Assembly (NCBI GenBank): GCA_028753945.1
Contig: JAPNXP010000006.1
Span: 2,976,001 to 3,040,000 of the forward strand
DNA length: 64,000 nt
Reading direction: 5' to 3'
Origin: Hexactinellida sp. DTS-2022
Taxonomy: Eukaryota > Porifera > Hexactinellida
The translations under genes and the position numbers were made by a program. Under the pieces are notes generated by a model. The model was not told the DNA's origin. It was given only the letters and a program-made list of their open reading frames with translations, and did no database searches. Positions 3,506 through 50,575 of the stretch are shown here, piece after piece (position 1 is the first letter of the stretch; each line of letters starts with the position of its first letter).

Positions 3506-3790
3506 TAGTGGCGTATCCAGGATTATCGTGAGCGGATCCTCTGGAGCGAGCGAAGCGAGCAACGGTAAGGGGGGATCTGGGGGGCAACCCCCCATAAATT
3601 CTTTTGAATCTTAGACGCTCAAACATCGATGTACAGCTATTCTTGTCACATAGTAGGAGGAGTGTAATATTGTGCAGTTGTACCAAAGATGTTTAGATGT
3701 TTTTGGTATTATAAATAACAACATATCCCTTTTGGAAACCAGTTATGAGGGGGTGTTTGAACACCCAAATCCCCCCTGGATACGCCACTG
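3506..3790. mobile_element. Small hAT-type element with G-rich interior
   Basis: AGTGGCGTATCCAGG at the left is inverted as CCTGGATACGCCACTG at the right. The flanks are runs of G (GGGGAGGG-like), so the target duplication cannot be resolved. Tracts of C or G of 6-12 fill the interior and the flank to 3870. Confidence 0.5.
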
Positions 3791-4118
3791 GAGGGGGGGG
3801 GGGGGTTCGCACTCCCCCTGATCCATTTTGGGAGGGGGGGTCCAACCCCCCTGAACCCCCCCGATGGATCCATCCCTGGGACCTGCCATAGTTCCATAGT
3901 GCAATGCACATGCTCCCCCATTTATGCGTCCTTGTGTCAGGACCAGTAGCTAGGGGGAGGCTCCCCGGCTAGGTTAACTTTTGTGATATATCTGACATTT
4001 GGATTTGTTGTTGAATTGGATATTATTGGAGTTTCATGCTCACATTTTGTATTAATACTGTACCCTCGAATAATCTAGTATCGCACTTGTACGTAGGTAT
4101 TGAAATTTGGGTGAATAG

Positions 4119-4580
4119 TACTAGTGTGATGACGGGCTGACAGGAGTGCACTAGAGGGGTCCTAGTGTAGGTGAGTTGTGCTTAGTACCTGTGATAGGAG
4201 AACGGCATGGCTCACTGGTAACTAGAACTGGAGTAGACCAGTTGTAGTGTGGTTGAGGGTTACCCTCCTGATGAGTCCTTGTGATAGGACGAAACCACTT
4301 CCACTAAGTAAGAGATCCCAAACCTTATGATGTGGTGGTAAGACCTTGCAGGCTTTGAGGGCTTGAGGCAGGTGCTGCAAGCATTGCAGGCTTGGCACCG
4401 AAGTGGTCAGCCCAGGTACCTATGGAAGGGAACCTGATGTGATGACGGGCTGACAGGAGTGCACTAGAGGGATCCTAGTGTAGGTGGGTTATGCTTAGTA
4501 CCTGTGGTAGGAGAACGGCATGCTCACTGGTAACTAGAACCCCTCTAGTGCACTCCTGTCAGCCCGTCATCACACTAGTA
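4119..4580 (+). mobile_element. Hammerhead-ribozyme element with 41-bp inverted ends
   Basis: Bases 4119-4159 (TACTAGTGTGATGACGGG...) recur exactly inverted at 4540-4580. Inside, about 100 bases of the left part recur directly: the block at 4131 is repeated at 4444, a 313-base period, so the element holds one full unit plus a truncated second. Minor differences separate the copies (GGGGTCC versus GGGATCC). A hammerhead core lies at 4245-4306 in the first unit; the second unit stops before it. The ends are TA...TA, compatible with a TA target but not proof. A tandem unit of about 300 nt with a hammerhead resembles the retrozyme class of non-autonomous elements, but long inverted ends are not part of that description. 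No ORF. Confidence 0.7.
4245..4306 (+). ncRNA. Hammerhead ribozyme, type III topology
   Basis: All core positions are present: CTGATGA at 4268-4274 and GAAA at 4291-4294. Helix II is GTCC/GGAC (4275-4278 with 4287-4290) closed by an 8-nt loop. Helix I is GAGGG/CCCTC (4255-4259 with 4263-4267) closed by TTA. Helix III is open: 4249-4253 (GTGGT) pairs with 4294-4298 (ACCAC), or, by a shifted outer pairing around a 4-nt bulge, TAGTG 4245-4249 pairs with CACTA 4302-4306. Predicted cleavage follows T4254 in a G-U-U triplet; U at position 17 fits the NUH rule but usually cuts more slowly than C. The three-base loop I leaves little room for the loop-loop contact of fast natural ribozymes. Confidence 0.8.
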
Positions 4581-29301: not shown

Positions 29302-31806
29302 CTAATGAGACGGACTTTTACTTCGAAACATATTAAGAGTGATATAGACAAGCTTTGAACTAAAAGAAATAAAAACAGAATTAGTTTTTGAATTTTTTAA
29401 GTTTAGAATTGTCGTGACCTTGACTTTATTGGAAAGTAAACAATTAGAAAGAGTCACAAATAATTTCTGCAATATATCCCAACATGACATGCTACAATCA
29501 CACCAAACCCTCCACATATTACCATACTTTGTTTCTGTCCTTATACAAGCTAACTGAACAAGTTTTGTACGATACGAACCTGTAAAAAAGTTCTCAAACA
29601 GCTGTTTTCGACTGTCGATTTTACTAAATATGTCATATATAATTTTTGCAATATCGATTACACAAGTCGATGGGTATTTCAGAGAACCTCTATCCAACAA
29701 TTCTATTAGTCTAAACTGATTACCAATGTCATCGTTAACCTGTATGGATTTTTCAGTCGTAAGAAAGTCTCTACACATTGGACAGCCATTTAATTTATTT
29801 AGGTATGAAAAAACTGCATAACCTGCCACAAATGCGAGGCACTCAACTTGAGAAATAGATATTTCTGGAAGGGTGAACTGTTCTAAATTTGTGATAAGTT
29901 TTTCTAATTCCAAATTTGAGTCCTCGCCATCATCAGTAACACTAGAAAAGGTACTCAAATATTCCATGAGTGTAGGTTTATGAATGGTATCAGATTTAGT
30001 TTTGATGTCAAATAGTTTTAGTATGTTAGAGAGTTGTAATCTGCGTTCGGATTCTAGGATTTGGCTATAGGAGATTTGATAGTGGGAACCTGACATTTGT
30101 CTATACAAACCAAAATGATGTTCTAAAGGATCGTTTTGTATCCTTGATGTCAACAGGTACTGGAAACCATATTTGGTACAAAGCATATCAACAAGCAAGG
30201 GCAGTGCGTTGCAAGTGTGTTTCAGACTTGTGAATGTTTGAGGTGACAGTTTTCCTTTAACAGTGGGAAGGTTTTTCCAATAGTCTAACCAGTTAACTAC
30301 ATTTCGTAGGAACAAGATTCGAGAGTCGTCTGGAGATAGAGGTCTAGAAAAGTCGTCATTAAAACGTATACCTTTCCCGACCCAATTTACATTAAACATT
30401 TTCCAGATGTCATTAATTAACTTCAGAAATTCAACAGTTTGGTTTTGACTTATACTTTTCCTTTCAAAATTGAGAGCTAATAGGCCAGCTGAAGTTGACT
30501 CGTGAAAAATCTTAAGTGCCAAATTTACATTCTGTCTTTCCAAGCTAGATGGCCAACAAGCTTTGGAAGTTAATTTTGGAGCTCGTTTAAAAATGTTACA
30601 TCTATCAGATTTGTATAAGGTCCTAATGTCATCAAAAACTGAATAGCATATTGTAGGATACAAAAAAAAAAAAATTAGCAAAATTAGTTGTGTAAATTTT
30701 GAGGCCTGAAGTATTGATCGATCTCTCAAATGATCCTGAGATTCATCTTCAGCAGATGTATGGTTAGGAGTGATACAATCATTAAATTTAGGAAAAATAA
30801 ATACTTTCTCGTAGTCTTTCAAATTTAACCAATTATTTCGAATTGATTTTAAAATATGGACTATATCAAAAAATAAAATAAGGTCTCTATTTGGGTTACA
30901 AGGATGTATAACTTTAGGTAGCAGTGTTTTGTGATTTAGGGAAAGAAGTTTATATAAACTGACATTTAGGGGGTAATTGTCGGTACAGACAGCATCTACA
31001 TATAAATTACAACTTTCAATGTCAGAAATTGTCTTAATAACAATGGGTAATAGTGCAGCAGCAGAGCTAGAACCAAGAGGGACTAGCCTTACAATGGTAG
31101 AGAACTTAGTCATCAAACTAGATACCATTATAGAAAATACAGTGGTGGGTGGGTCTTCCGGATGGTCAATAGAGCCAATAATTCTACCACCTTTATAACT
31201 AGCATCGCTACGTATATGAACTTCGTCCATCTGAAGTATAACATGCCTCTCTAAATCTTTGAATGTAGTAGATGAAAATTCCTTAAGTACACTTAAATAT
31301 TCACTCTCTAAACCAATTGAATTTTTAATTTTGAGTAGATTACGTTCATGAGGGAGATTCAAACAATTTGAGGATTGGATTAGCCGAAAACAAGCGGGAG
31401 AAATGCCGTGTACCTTGAGGGAAAAAACCTGCGTTGTCACGCTATAACGGCGCCCATATTTTGAAATTATTAAATTTCTCAATTGATCAAGTAGAAACAT
31501 AATCCCAATTTTTGGTAATATAGGTAAGTTCTCGATTTGGGGTCTCTGAAATTCTATATCTTGATCACTCTGCTCTATTAGTTCAATGGCACTTTGCAAC
31601 TCAATAATAGCATTTTCAACATGCGTTTTAACGGAGGGTTGACGTTGGTTGGGTTTGCATTTAGGACTATTAACTGGGAATGTTTCAATTTCTACTAACA
31701 ATGTCTCAATCTGGCGGATGTCATTAATTTTGTTGAGAGATAAATATATTTGGCGCTTGTGTTGATCAAAACCATTAATCAATAAACATTGGTCTATTAC
31801 AAGCAT
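29302..31806 (-). CDS. P-element/THAP9-like transposase, no THAP finger
   Basis: An uninterrupted frame of about 834 residues from the first ATG (31806); the frame is open to 31875 without another ATG. It matches the P-element transposase fold: MDEVHIRSD near a quarter of the way (first catalytic Asp), a stretch with VDAVCTDNYPLN (second Asp region), FFDIVHILKSIRNNW (the conserved D-x-x-H-x-x-K-x-x-R box), and NDPLEHHFGLYRQ near the C-terminus with the likely catalytic Glu. These enzymes cut DNA with GTP as cofactor. The N-terminal C2CH THAP DNA-binding finger is not in this frame. Upstream, a short ATG peptide MSCIVPV at about 32430 is cut off by Helitron-like sequence and might be the first residues of that domain. 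Integrity over 2.5 kb suggests recent activity, but DNA binding may be lost. Confidence 0.82.
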   Translation of the reverse strand: MLVIDQCLLINGFDQHKRQIYLSLNKINDIRQIETLLVEIETFPVNSPKCKPNQRQPSVKTHVENAIIELQSAIELIEQSDQDIEFQRPQIENLPILPKIGIMFLLDQLRNLIISKYGRRYSVTTQVFSLKVHGISPACFRLIQSSNCLNLPHERNLLKIKNSIGLESEYLSVLKEFSSTTFKDLERHVILQMDEVHIRSDASYKGGRIIGSIDHPEDPPTTVFSIMVSSLMTKFSTIVRLVPLGSSSAAALLPIVIKTISDIESCNLYVDAVCTDNYPLNVSLYKLLSLNHKTLLPKVIHPCNPNRDLILFFDIVHILKSIRNNWLNLKDYEKVFIFPKFNDCITPNHTSAEDESQDHLRDRSILQASKFTQLILLIFFFLYPTICYSVFDDIRTLYKSDRCNIFKRAPKLTSKACWPSSLERQNVNLALKIFHESTSAGLLALNFERKSISQNQTVEFLKLINDIWKMFNVNWVGKGIRFNDDFSRPLSPDDSRILFLRNVVNWLDYWKNLPTVKGKLSPQTFTSLKHTCNALPLLVDMLCTKYGFQYLLTSRIQNDPLEHHFGLYRQMSGSHYQISYSQILESERRLQLSNILKLFDIKTKSDTIHKPTLMEYLSTFSSVTDDGEDSNLELEKLITNLEQFTLPEISISQVECLAFVAGYAVFSYLNKLNGCPMCRDFLTTEKSIQVNDDIGNQFRLIELLDRGSLKYPSTCVIDIAKIIYDIFSKIDSRKQLFENFFTGSYRTKLVQLACIRTETKYGNMWRVWCDCSMSCWDILQKLFVTLSNCLLSNKVKVTTILNLKNSKTNSVFISFSSKLVYITLNMFRSKSPSH

Positions 31807-31889
31807 AGACTCCTTAAGTAAAGGACTGGAACGTCGCGATCTCGGGGGTTTTAACTTGAGTCTGAGAGGCTCCAATTATAAAAATTGAT

Positions 31890-33958: not shown

Positions 33959-34200
33959 TGTATATAATACGTGTGTTCTTAATTAATAAATAGCAAGCGT
34001 ATCGAGCAATCGAAATGCCCTCCAGAAATGTGTCCAGAGAAATGATCCCTATCCAGGTTTGTCTGGAGTAAATTGGCAGGTGTGAGAATGTCAAATATTT
34101 AAATGCATGATGTATGGGGAGAAAGATTTACTATAATTGTAAATAGCTTTCACAATATATTGATTATTGTGCATTAATAATACACTTACTAAAAACATTT

Positions 34201-34373
34201 TTACTGTGCCGACTATACTATAGTATAGTGGCCCAGTATTAGAATCACTGCCTTTATTATTTTTACTGTGCCGACTATACTATAGTATAGTGGCCCAGTA
34301 TTGGAATCACTGCCTTTATTACTGTGCCGACTATACTATAGTATAGTGGCCCAGTATTAGAATCACTGCCTTT
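34201..34373 (+). repeat. 59-bp palindromic motif, three tandem copies
   Basis: Each copy holds the perfect palindrome ACTATACTATAGTATAGT inside TGTGCCG...GGCCCAGTATT, followed by CACTGCCTTTATTA. They lead into the TTA tract and the head of the first repeat-A unit. Confidence 0.9.
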
Positions 34374-34400
34374 ATTATTATTATTTTTATTATTATTATT

Positions 34401-42850: not shown

Positions 42851-45800
42851 TTACTGTGCCGACTATACTATAGTGTAGTGGCCCAGTATTGGTCTTAGTG
42901 CTTTGGTTGGTAATTATTATCCTTCCGTATCCTCTCCACAGAACAGAGTTATATTTACTAAGAACTGGAATTTCAGGACAGGTGTCTCATGGGTTACAGA
43001 TGTGCACCTGGGGTCACGATTTTTGATTAATTTTTTTTGGACACATTTTTGCACCTGTTTAATATTTAAACACGAACAATAAATAGTACCCGAATATTCA
43101 ATTTATATGCATTCGATAGAGAATTAAATTCTACACCTTTTCACAGTGCACGAATTTTTAAATTGAATTTCGTTAGTGCCACAATGGAGTTGCAATTTTC
43201 CTTTGTTTACTAACACTTCAGTTCAATTGAAAGTGTTAAATCTAATACTATTGTTTCAACTTGTGATTATTATATTGATTCAACTTGTGAGATCGAGTAG
43301 GCTTCTATTTTCCAATTTTAAACTAAGATTATATATTTCATAACAACGACAGATTATGTGATTATATTTCCATCTGCAAGAATACTCTTGCACTATTATA
43401 GACTGACGTAATTAATTATATAATTAATTCAGTCCGTATTTTGACTTATATATAGATGCTTCCAATTTGTTTATTAGGGGTTATCGAGTGTGCGAAATTG
43501 AAATATGGTAGCCAAATTAACAATAATTACTATTTATGACAAATAACTAATCTTAATAAATTTAAGTCGACATTGAAATTGGTGTTAAATTATAAATAAT
43601 ATTAATAATTATTTATACTAATTAATTAAATATCATAAATCTCAGAGATCATAGAAGATAGAAACAAACTTTCAATTTATCAATTGGTCCATATGGCATG
43701 TGCCACCTATACAAGTGGGTCTTGACACCTTGAGGTGATGATGGCATCGTTAAAAAAATGTGTTTTTACAATTTTGTTAATTCGATATTTAAAATGGGTT
43801 AGTTGATGTTGGGTGATGTCCAAACACTCGCATAAAAAATGCTGAGTCATCAGCTATTATATTCTGCTCAAACTTGAATATCTCTAAAATGAAGTGAACT
43901 AAATGGAAACTTCCACCACTCTAAGGGTCGATGGCTTCTGTAACACCTTTTTGAAATAATTTAACACCTTCATAGTGATGATGACATGGCGAAAAAAATT
44001 CCCAAATTGCAGCCTGTGCCGACAGCATGTTCCTTTGGAGGCACTATCTATAAACAACCAACAAAATATACTGCCACCAAAGGAACTTGCGTCGGCACAG
44101 GCTGCAATTTTGGATTTTATATATATTTATTTGAACTATAATGCGGTGGTTTTTACTGTGCCGACTATACTATAGTATGGTGGCCCAGTATTGGAACCGC
44201 TGCCTTTATTTTTTTTATTTATTTTTTCTCCGTAGAGGTGCCCTGGCCACACCTGTATACATTGAAGGCTGATACTTGGCATGTAGTTGCGGCGGAGTGA
44301 CCGTCTAATTTGCACCTGGAATTACGATTTTTTATCAAATGATTTCAACACCTATTTCAACTAATTATGGCTCATAACATGAAATAATTAATATTGAGCT
44401 TGATAAAATTACATGTACGGATAGAGAAATAAATTCTACACCTTTTGGCAAATCACAAATATTCAATTTAGCCTAGGTTTGTGCCATTATTGGGGTGCCA
44501 ATCTCCTGTGTTTCCTCACACTTCAGATTCAGTAAAACTGTTAAATCTAATTCTATTGTTCAACTTGTATTAATTATATTGATTTGACTTGTTAAACCTT
44601 ACTCTATTGTTTCAACTTGTGATAAATATATTGATTTAACTTGTAAATTCCAGCTGGCTTCTATTTAATTGTAGTACAGTAGATGTCGGATATAAGCACA
44701 CCGGTTATAAGAACATATCGGATATAAGCACACTATGTTGGAAAACGGTTGCCATATACCCTGTATTATTTATGTCGGTTATAAGAACATGTCGGTTATA
44801 AGCACATTAAGTGCAGTTCCCGACGATGTGCTTATAACCGGCATCCACTGTATTACTATACAATGGATTAAATTAAATTAAATAATATATGAAATTTGTT
44901 GACTTTACTCAACTCACCGTGGATAACATTGCTAAAATATATAACTAATAATATAATTTATTATCAATACATAATAAATGAATGGCATTAAACTCAAGAT
45001 GGTTTATTATAGAAACAAACTTCAAATTAATCTACCGTTCCTTGTGACTCGAAACAATTAACAAATAGTTCTTGACACCCTGGGCGTTGATGACTTGGCT
45101 TTAAAAAAAATCCAAAATTGCAGCCTGTGCCGACAGCATGTTCCTTTGGAGGCACTATCAATGAACAACCAACAAATATAGTGCCACAAGAGGAACATGC
45201 GTCTGCACAGGCTGCAATTTTGGATTTTTTTTACTGTGCCGACTATACTATAGTATAGTGGCCCAGTTCTAATCTTAGTGTTTGGTTGCCGATTATTATT
45301 ACTGTGCCGACTATACTATAGTATAGTGGCCCAGTATTGGTCAAGTGCTTTGGTTATTATTATTACTGTGCCGACTATACTATAGTATAGTGGCCCAGTA
45401 TTGAAATGAGTGCCTTGGTATATTATTTTTTATCCGTAGCCTCTCCACAGAACAGAGTTTTATTTGTTAAGAGCCCAAATTTCAGGATATGTGTCTCATT
45501 GGTTACAGATGTGCACTTGGGGTCACGATTTTTGATTACATTTTTTTGGACACATTTTACCCCTGTTTAATGTTGTAAAAATAACAATAAATGGTGCCCC
45601 AATATTCTATTTATATGCATTCGATAGAGAATTAAATTCTACACCTTTTCACAGTGCACGAATTATTAAATTGGGTTTCGTTTGTGCCACAATTGAGTAA
45701 CATTGCTAAAATTAATAATTAATAATAAATTTTTTATTATCAATACATAATGAATGAATGGCATTAAGCTCAAGATGGTTTATGATAGAAACAAACTTCA

Positions 45801-49690: not shown

Positions 49691-50575
49691 GGGAAACCTG
49701 AATAAGACCGAATGGAATAAGACCGAAAAAAAATCAGTACTGGAATAAGACCGAATGGAATAAGACCGAAAGGAAATCAGTACTGGAATAAGACCGAATG
49801 GAATAAGACCGAAAAAAAATCAGTACTGGAATAAGACCGAATGGAATAAGACCGAAAAAAAATCAATACTGGAATAAGACCGAATGGAATAAGACCGAAA
49901 AAAAATCAGTACTGGAATAAGACCGAATGGAATAAGACCGAAAAAAAAATCAATACTGGAATAAGACCGAATGGAATAAGACCGAAAAAATATAAGGGCT
50001 GCTTTTCACCCTGATCAATATTAGACACTTAGAAAGGCGAGCGTTTTAACCATTCTCCATAAAAGACAATTAGAGTGGCCAGTGTTTTCTCCATGATACA
50101 TATATCACACTTAAAAAGGCGAGTATTTTCTCCATTAATCACATAGTCGGGTGTTTTCTCAATGAACCATAATTCACGCATAGAAAGTCGAGGTTTCACT
50201 TTTATTCTTACCAATAGATACGTATTTCAGAGTAGTCCTTATATTATTCGGTCTTATTCCAGTACTGATTTTTTTTCGGTCTTATTCCATTCGGTCTTAT
50301 TCCAGTACTGATTTTTTTTCGGTCTTATTCCATTCGGTCTTATTCCAGTACTTATTTCCTTTCGGTCTTATTCCATTCGGTCTTATTCCAGTACTGATTT
50401 TTTTTCGGTCTTATTCCATTCGGTCTTATTCCAGTATTGATTTTTTTTCGGTCTTATTCCATTCGGTCTTATTCCAGTACTCATTATTTTCGGTCTTATT
50501 CCATTCGGTCTTATTCCAGTCCTGATTTTTTTTCGGTCTTATTCCATTCGGTCTTATTCCAGTCTTAGAAAATCA
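49691..50575. repeat. Inverted satellite block (44-bp units)
   Basis: Seven units of GGAATAAGACCGAATGG...GAAAAAAAATCAGTACT at 49699-49988 and seven inverted at 50247-50572, around a 257-base spacer with GTTTTCTCCAT repeats. The two blocks can pair for about 300 bases. Confidence 0.9.

Follow-up and report, generated by a model that had tools for sequence, protein, structure and literature searches.

Two groups of retrozymes have been described. In plants, LTR retrozymes are reported with type III hammerheads, 4-bp duplications, a PBS and a PPT (PMC4918200), while metazoan retrozymes are presented as non-LTR elements with type I hammerheads and larger duplications (PMC7229834; PMC7761336). A December 2024 review, in its accessible text, repeats this split between plant type III LTR and animal type I non-LTR elements (PMC11722881). 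Animal type III hammerheads are reported from dipterans and from HDV-like agents of toad and termite, with a long helix I and an atypical architecture (PMC7936874). We found no description of an animal LTR retrozyme in the accessible text of the open-licence literature.

The element analyzed here lies in a 64,000-nucleotide stretch of DNA (the window) and has relatives throughout its genome. Frames in the window and in nearby loci match a kinesin domain, NHL repeats, a caspase domain, a TRAF zinc finger and cyclophilin, and from these domain matches the genome is very probably that of an animal. Two other frames, profiled together with the caspase, TRAF and cyclophilin frames, gave no match. 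The best solved relative of the caspase-like frame is a reconstructed effector caspase-3/6/7, a weak match (E 0.0008), followed by two chains named "conserved domain protein" (E 0.008).

Anatomy of the window element

The element spans 450 bp (4125-4574) within a 4-bp target-site duplication, CTAG (Table 1). An LTR-like unit, R, is followed by an internal segment, I, by a shortened second R and by an inverted copy of the start of R. The hammerhead lies near the 3' end of the first R, where the 57-bp U5-like tail of most listed copies is absent; the second R ends 5' of the hammerhead, leaving one ribozyme in the element. The break in the second R falls at the foot of an AACTGG/CCAGTT hairpin found in full R copies, as read from their sequence and from the fold of locus L002. 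Everything beyond ACTAGAAC is the complement of the element start, down to the element's first base. Stop-to-stop frames that overlap the element reach 65 aa at most.

Table 1. Features of the window element and minisatellite positions (window coordinates).
Feature	Position	Strand	Details and evidence
Left target-site duplication, CTAG	4121-4124		Identical to 4575-4578; directly outside TGTG...CACA
Unit R no. 1 (LTR-like, family A)	4125-4304	+	180 bp; starts TGTGATGACGGG; 180-bp match common to most listed copies
Type III hammerhead	4249-4298	+	RF00008, 47.0 bits; covariation over 50 distinct copies
Helix III	4249-4253/4294-4298		
Helix I	4255-4259/4263-4267		
Helix II	4275-4279/4286-4290		
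CUGAUGA	4268-4274		
GAA	4291-4293		
Predicted cut	after U4254		
Internal segment I	4305-4437	+	133 bp; six matches at five genome loci
TTATGATGTGGTG, within I	4325-4337		Like the 3' arm of the LTR-end-spanning hairpin in related copies
Purine-rich stretch	4424-4437		5' of second R; by eye
Second R	4438-4540	+	Stops at R position 104, without hammerhead; 95% to 4125-4228
Candidate fold-back priming site, ACTAGAAC	4533-4540	+	7/8 bases complementary to GTCCTAGT, 4159-4166
Inverted copy of R's first 34 bases	4541-4574	-	Ends CACA
Right target-site duplication, CTAG	4575-4578		Same as 4121-4124
Minisatellite unit, 24/52 bp	10020, 34727, 36175, 37451, 44539, 45919, 61332, 63874		

A preliminary description of this DNA had read the locus as a 313-base direct repeat with exact 41-bp inverted ends. 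A period of 313 does exist, but the part repeated is just 103-104 nt (4125-4228/4438-4540, 95% identity). Exact complements are likewise present (42 bp, 4119-4160/4539-4580), but their bounds are not those of the element, whose own share is 36 bp; the remainder consists of 4 bp of the palindromic CTAG duplication and 2 bp outside it that match by chance. Because it holds a single ribozyme and an inverted end, the window copy could undergo one cut at most, and neither a unit-length RNA nor a circle can be released from it.

Elsewhere in the window, a short element at 3507-3789 has perfect 15-bp inverted ends (AGTGGCGTATCCAGG/CCTGGATACGCCACT) and the flanks ggagggt and ggagggg, and looks like an ordinary MITE. 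On the minus strand, an 857-aa stop-free frame (29302-31875) contains a TNP-like RNase H domain and presumably belongs to the P-element/THAP9-like transposases. Two arrays of a 43-bp unit, with 6.7 and 7.4 copies (49700-49990 and 50246-50563), lie 255 bp apart and look like mutual reverse complements. By eye, a 24/52-bp minisatellite unit (TGTTAAATCCAACTC... or its complement) recurs in many places on both strands. A dispersed unit with GTGCCGACTATACTATAGTATAGTGGCCCAGTATT is tandem at 34197-34383 and 45224-45404 and is also found in locus L082.

The hammerhead is of type III

In a search of 701 bases, the Hammerhead_3 model (RF00008) matched the forward strand at 4249-4298 with 47.0 bits (E 3.8e-9), just below the curated cut-off of 48.5 bits; a scan of the whole window at the gathering threshold, which this score does not reach, returned no RF00008 entry. 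The core pattern has a single occurrence in the window, compared with a mean of 0.00 over 100 shuffles, and the folding energy of the hammerhead is unremarkable (z -1.06). Relatives in the same family score 58.3 bits (two sisters) and 54.3 bits (a third copy), and five sister loci hold 11 RF00008 matches above the cut-off.

All hammerhead positions, including the predicted cut, were taken from an alignment of 50 distinct hammerheads, in which the nucleotide before the cut is C in 48, A in one and U in the window copy (4254). Over 57 aligned bases the window copy differs from its sister L004 only by this cleavage-site U for C. At the level of sequence, then, the motif is confirmed as a genuine type III hammerhead, as the preliminary description had proposed: the alignment gives the same predicted cleavage point, after U4254, and the tiny loop I noted there, of 3 nt, agrees with the Rfam type III alignment. 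The accompanying remark that type III is uncommon in animals is correct and proves to be the interesting part. A partial likeness to a hammerhead at 3924-3943 was taken as chance.

Hammerhead families across the genome

The strict core pattern has 185 matches genome-wide, in several families, and a reversed control pattern has none. A genome search with RF00008 gave at least 68 scored matches, 64 of the 68 above the cut-off, and the same model found no match in 14 control genomes. Standard pairs fill 97.9% of the 750 pair cells in the alignment of the 50 distinct hammerheads, while slid controls reach at most 64.1%. Two-sided changes affect five pairs and 48 cells, compared with 14.5 when shuffled; they lie in helices II and III, with none in helix I. 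The helices are better supported than the core, because the sampling pattern fixes the core and the loci were mostly found with RF00008, so that core conservation is partly built in. Nine strict matches, all on the minus strand, lie within ~0.42 Mb (G000:C1:12979927-13400565) and may be a segmentally amplified cluster.

For family A, to which the window element belongs, the whole 112.4-Mb, 18-contig genome was searched with the element as query, giving at least 89 matches (40 of 263 candidates scored). Most listed copies match R alone, followed by the 57-bp tail ending CTCACCACA, and not I; their usual length is ~237 bp (231-244, mostly 237), in the form TGTGATGA...TCACCACA. All the genomic matches of I belong to family A or to a degenerate relative. 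In single copies ~7/8 terminal bases are shared (by eye), compared with the 36-bp inverted match of the window copy, and long inverted ends are confined to some rearranged copies.

These copies bear directly on what kind of element had been proposed. The preliminary description suggested a new, TIR-bounded ribozyme element, either a DNA transposon that had captured a ribozyme or a retrozyme inserted with an inverted partial copy. A TIR-bounded family is contradicted by the other copies, in which the core is kept without the inverted ends, and a TIR DNA transposon was rejected for the window copy since its relatives are without long inverted ends. The retrozyme with an inverted partial copy is the version that the related genomic copies support. 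The inverted ends are not a family trait; they most likely stem from an accident in the copying of a single element.

Duplications were counted in copies with both ends placed by patterns, inner copies of composites included, and expected counts come from mismatched pairs of flanks. Among 26 single-length copies of family A, 11 have a 4-bp duplication (0.24 expected), four a 2-bp duplication (1.68 expected) and none a duplication of 3, 5 or 6 bp; an exact duplication is absent in 15, some of them inner copies of composites. Twenty further RF00008 loci fall mostly in family B, whose ends resemble TGTTATGAG...CTCATAACA; 4-bp duplications flank 4 of 13 placed copies (0.00 expected), several loci (e.g. 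L043, L045, L048, L052-L055) being unplaced. The ends of family C are TGTAGTATCGG...TTATTACA or TTACTACA, and its duplications are of 5 bp (7 of 17, inner LTRs included; 0.12 expected).

LTRs, primer sites and Ty3/gypsy elements

In the complete members examined (L058, L061, L064 and L065), an internal part lies between two LTRs that each contain a type III hammerhead, whereas the window copy has one in the first R only. In three of them, which represent family C (L061, L064, L065), the LTR is followed by one T, an 18-nt complement of tRNA-Ser, the internal part, a purine tract and the second LTR. The tRNA-Ser complement starts one base after ACA and covers the tRNA 3' end including CCA. Their 5-bp duplications are ACATG, GTTAC and ACATG, and the two LTRs are 98.7%, 97.3% and 80.3% identical, respectively (99.7% in L058). 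By eye, the purine tract is clear in these three loci (AAGGTGAGAGGAG) and weaker in families A and B.

A primer site for tRNA-Gly, likewise one base after ACA, is present as 18-19 nt in L069, L071 and L084 and as 14 nt in L085. When 96 loci (192 locus-strands) were run for primer sites, ten gave 18-19 nt, one gave 14 and all others at most 9; the ten long runs are those of L061, L064, L065 and L069, of L071 and L084 on both strands each, and of the gypsy loci L081 and L082. At the loci used, ARAGORN identified genes for tRNA-Ser(gct) and tRNA-Gly(gcc) in the host genome. In six family A/B loci tested, no tRNA-Ser or tRNA-Gly primer site was found, the longest run being 6. Two priming styles appear to exist, on sequence evidence, among the retrozymes of this genome.

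With one mismatch allowed, the tRNA-Ser site pattern occurs seven times genome-wide. Three of these places, L081-L083, have TTATTACA next to the tRNA-Ser site (mismatched at one base in L083), with gag-like frames or an RT frame downstream. Downstream of L083 lies L096, where pieces of protease, RT, RNase H and integrase follow one another as in Ty3/gypsy elements; it also has a 3' LTR piece of 95 nt that is 98.9% identical to the end of the 5' LTR. These gypsy elements with the tRNA-Ser site are decayed, and their gag-like frames gave zero significant Pfam matches. The stretches of L081-L083 upstream of the primer site showed no hammerhead core, which fits a helper supplying enzymes only. The helper of family C is most likely a Ty3/gypsy element of this kind, sharing the tRNA-Ser primer site and the LTR 3' end. 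For families A and B, a search with the internal segment (43 matches, 33 of 33 candidates scored) revealed no helper among the places opened, and a hairpin pattern, with nine places, no hammerhead-free candidate element; all nine places of the exact B-type hairpin are in hammerhead loci already collected.

Inverted composites and the LTR-end hairpin

Inverted units within a single outer duplication occur in L004, L058, L062, L070 and L071, and without an outer duplication in L009 and L069; in L012 the second end was not found. An outer duplication surrounds the whole composite in 13 of 16 checked, inverted ones included, in a non-random set of multi-unit loci selected by eye. The outermost duplications are, for example, CTAT/CTAT in L058 and GTAG/GTAG in L059.

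In non-inverted A/B copies (L058, L089, L090, L091), the 3' end of the LTR is spanned by a palindromic hairpin that shows compensating differences, such as CGTAACATAAGTACT (L089) versus CATAACATAATAACT (L058). The hairpin is also present in L063, which is truncated upstream, and in a shorter form in L028. This LTR-end palindrome is the hinge of the inversion in L058, L062, L092 and L094, while the inversion point of the window copy differs, pairing ACTAGAAC with GTCCTAGT at 7/8 bases. L009 leaves R at position 105, near the window break (104), at the foot of the AACTGG...CCAGTT hairpin. Strong self-pairing of the putative unit is not general, since the fold of L002 has z -1.7, compared with z -5.2 for L061.

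Direct hammerhead spacings range from 238 to 486 nt: 313 (L046), 311 (L002), 238 (L005), 385 (L059 and L060), 372 (L061), 371 (L064), 380 (L065) and 486 (L058). Set apart from this range are 653 (L057, two separate insertions), 527 (L058, a third, rearranged unit) and 343 and 1299 (L071, rearranged; separate element). A 313-nt circle could come from dimers only, such as L046. Copies of family A with the order R-I-R have a 5' unit without the tail, and hence no textbook LTR pair; the best such dimer, L002, has a core change in its first hammerhead (CGGAUGAG). In the family A/B dimers L002, L059 and L060, the 5' unit has ~20 unrelated bases in place of the U5-like tail and of one half of the LTR-end hairpin.

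Origin of the window copy

We consider it highly probable that the window copy is the cDNA of an LTR retrozyme that folded on itself and was then integrated, and that its families in the host genome are type III LTR retrozymes. What the sequences show directly is the structure of the hammerheads with their covariation, together with the LTRs, the primer sites, the duplicated target sites and the gypsy elements; from these we infer the steps of the cycle. A transcript with two LTRs would be cut at both hammerheads, and the released unit (238-486 nt by the spacing of the direct pairs) may close to a circle or stay linear. A helper reverse transcriptase would copy the unit, and a helper integrase would insert the TG...CA-ended DNA, with a duplication of 4 bp (families A and B) or 5 bp (family C). 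In the window copy, the growing cDNA strand may have halted at the hairpin, folded back, annealed ACTAGAAC to GTCCTAGT and copied its own 5' end into a mirror-image end. The integrase would accept this product because both ends now read TGTG...CACA. By sequence geometry, one fold-back priming step would account for where the inversion lies, how far it reaches and why the ends match.

The same arrangement could have arisen at the DNA level, through a second, opposite insertion with a deletion or through recombination between copies. Genomes do rearrange, the mirror-image part is an ordinary segment of R, and L009 and L069 are inverted composites without an outer duplication. However, a single CTAG duplication surrounds the whole window element, both of its ends are exact TGTG...CACA, the five other inverted composites listed above have single outer duplications as well, and the break in L009 falls almost at the same point of R, so we regard a DNA-level origin as unlikely. 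Nested double insertion is the less likely because there is one outer duplication.

A different question is whether families A and B might be MITE-like cut-and-paste elements that carry the ribozyme by chance. Such a cycle would suit their 4-bp duplications, the short inverted ends of the form TG...CA, the many copies of the single length of 237 bp and the six tested loci without a tRNA-Ser or tRNA-Gly site, and Ginger transposases have a gypsy-type integrase and make 4-bp duplications. Yet family C, which shares this hammerhead and whose LTRs have inverted ends about as short, has clear primer sites, purine tracts and LTR pairs; direct LTR-internal-LTR multimers were integrated as one unit (L058, L059, L060); and compensatory changes preserve the pairing of helices II and III from family to family, for which a cycle at the DNA level would have no need. 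We judge this reading very unlikely. Inverted copies also occur among Penelope elements. Tandem units of ~300 bp are described as typical of Penelope-like elements and type I metazoan retrozymes (PMC7229834; PMC7761336), but the hammerhead here is type III, unlike the minimal type I hammerhead of Penelope terminal repeats, duplications are exactly 4 or 5 bp, LTR ends are present and family C has tRNA primer sites; we rejected both on hammerhead type and duplications, and their chances are close to nil.

Retrozyme cDNA integration being preferred, a bolder and rather doubtful extension is that animals own LTR retrozymes of the type III, viroid type, whose A/B branch dropped tRNA priming, with reverse transcription started instead by the compensated LTR-end hairpin, which would prime itself on a small RNA circle. 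If true, hairpin self-priming on the circle would also explain why many mirror-image copies were integrated as single units.

Comparison with known systems

The families described here bear on the origin of viroid-like circles with type III hammerheads and provide a defined set for the study of circle formation and helper dependence. They resemble plant LTR retrozymes, as these are described by Cervera et al., 2016 (PMC4918200), in the type III hammerhead of each LTR (in L058, L061, L064 and L065), the non-coding internal part, the solo LTRs, the primer site and purine tract (family C), the 4-bp duplications (A and B) and Ty3/gypsy as the likely helper. Unlike the plant elements in that account, they occupy a host that is very probably an animal, have units of 238-486 nt rather than 600-800, use tRNA-Ser or tRNA-Gly rather than tRNA-Met, and make 5-bp duplications in family C; the A/B LTR-end hairpin, the tested A/B loci without a Ser/Gly site and the repeated inverted composites are further differences.

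With the metazoan non-LTR retrozymes reported by Cervera and de la Pena, 2020 (PMC7229834), they share an animal host (very probably so here), small units and tandem arrangement at some loci. However, those elements are presented as type I, with larger duplications and without LTR, PBS or PPT, while family C has all three. Animal TRIM elements, in an ant (PMC3532108) and in bivalves (PMC6934838), are likewise very short non-autonomous LTR elements, and the accessible text of these reports mentions no ribozyme. The hammerheads of dipterans and HDV-like agents are type III in animals, as here, and the accessible text does not describe them as LTR elements (PMC7936874).

The host genome is very probably that of an animal, and its elements are best read as LTR retrozymes, the kind so far described from plants. 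If the host is an animal, type III LTR retrozymes beside gypsy elements with the same primer site would remove the split between plant and animal retrozymes.
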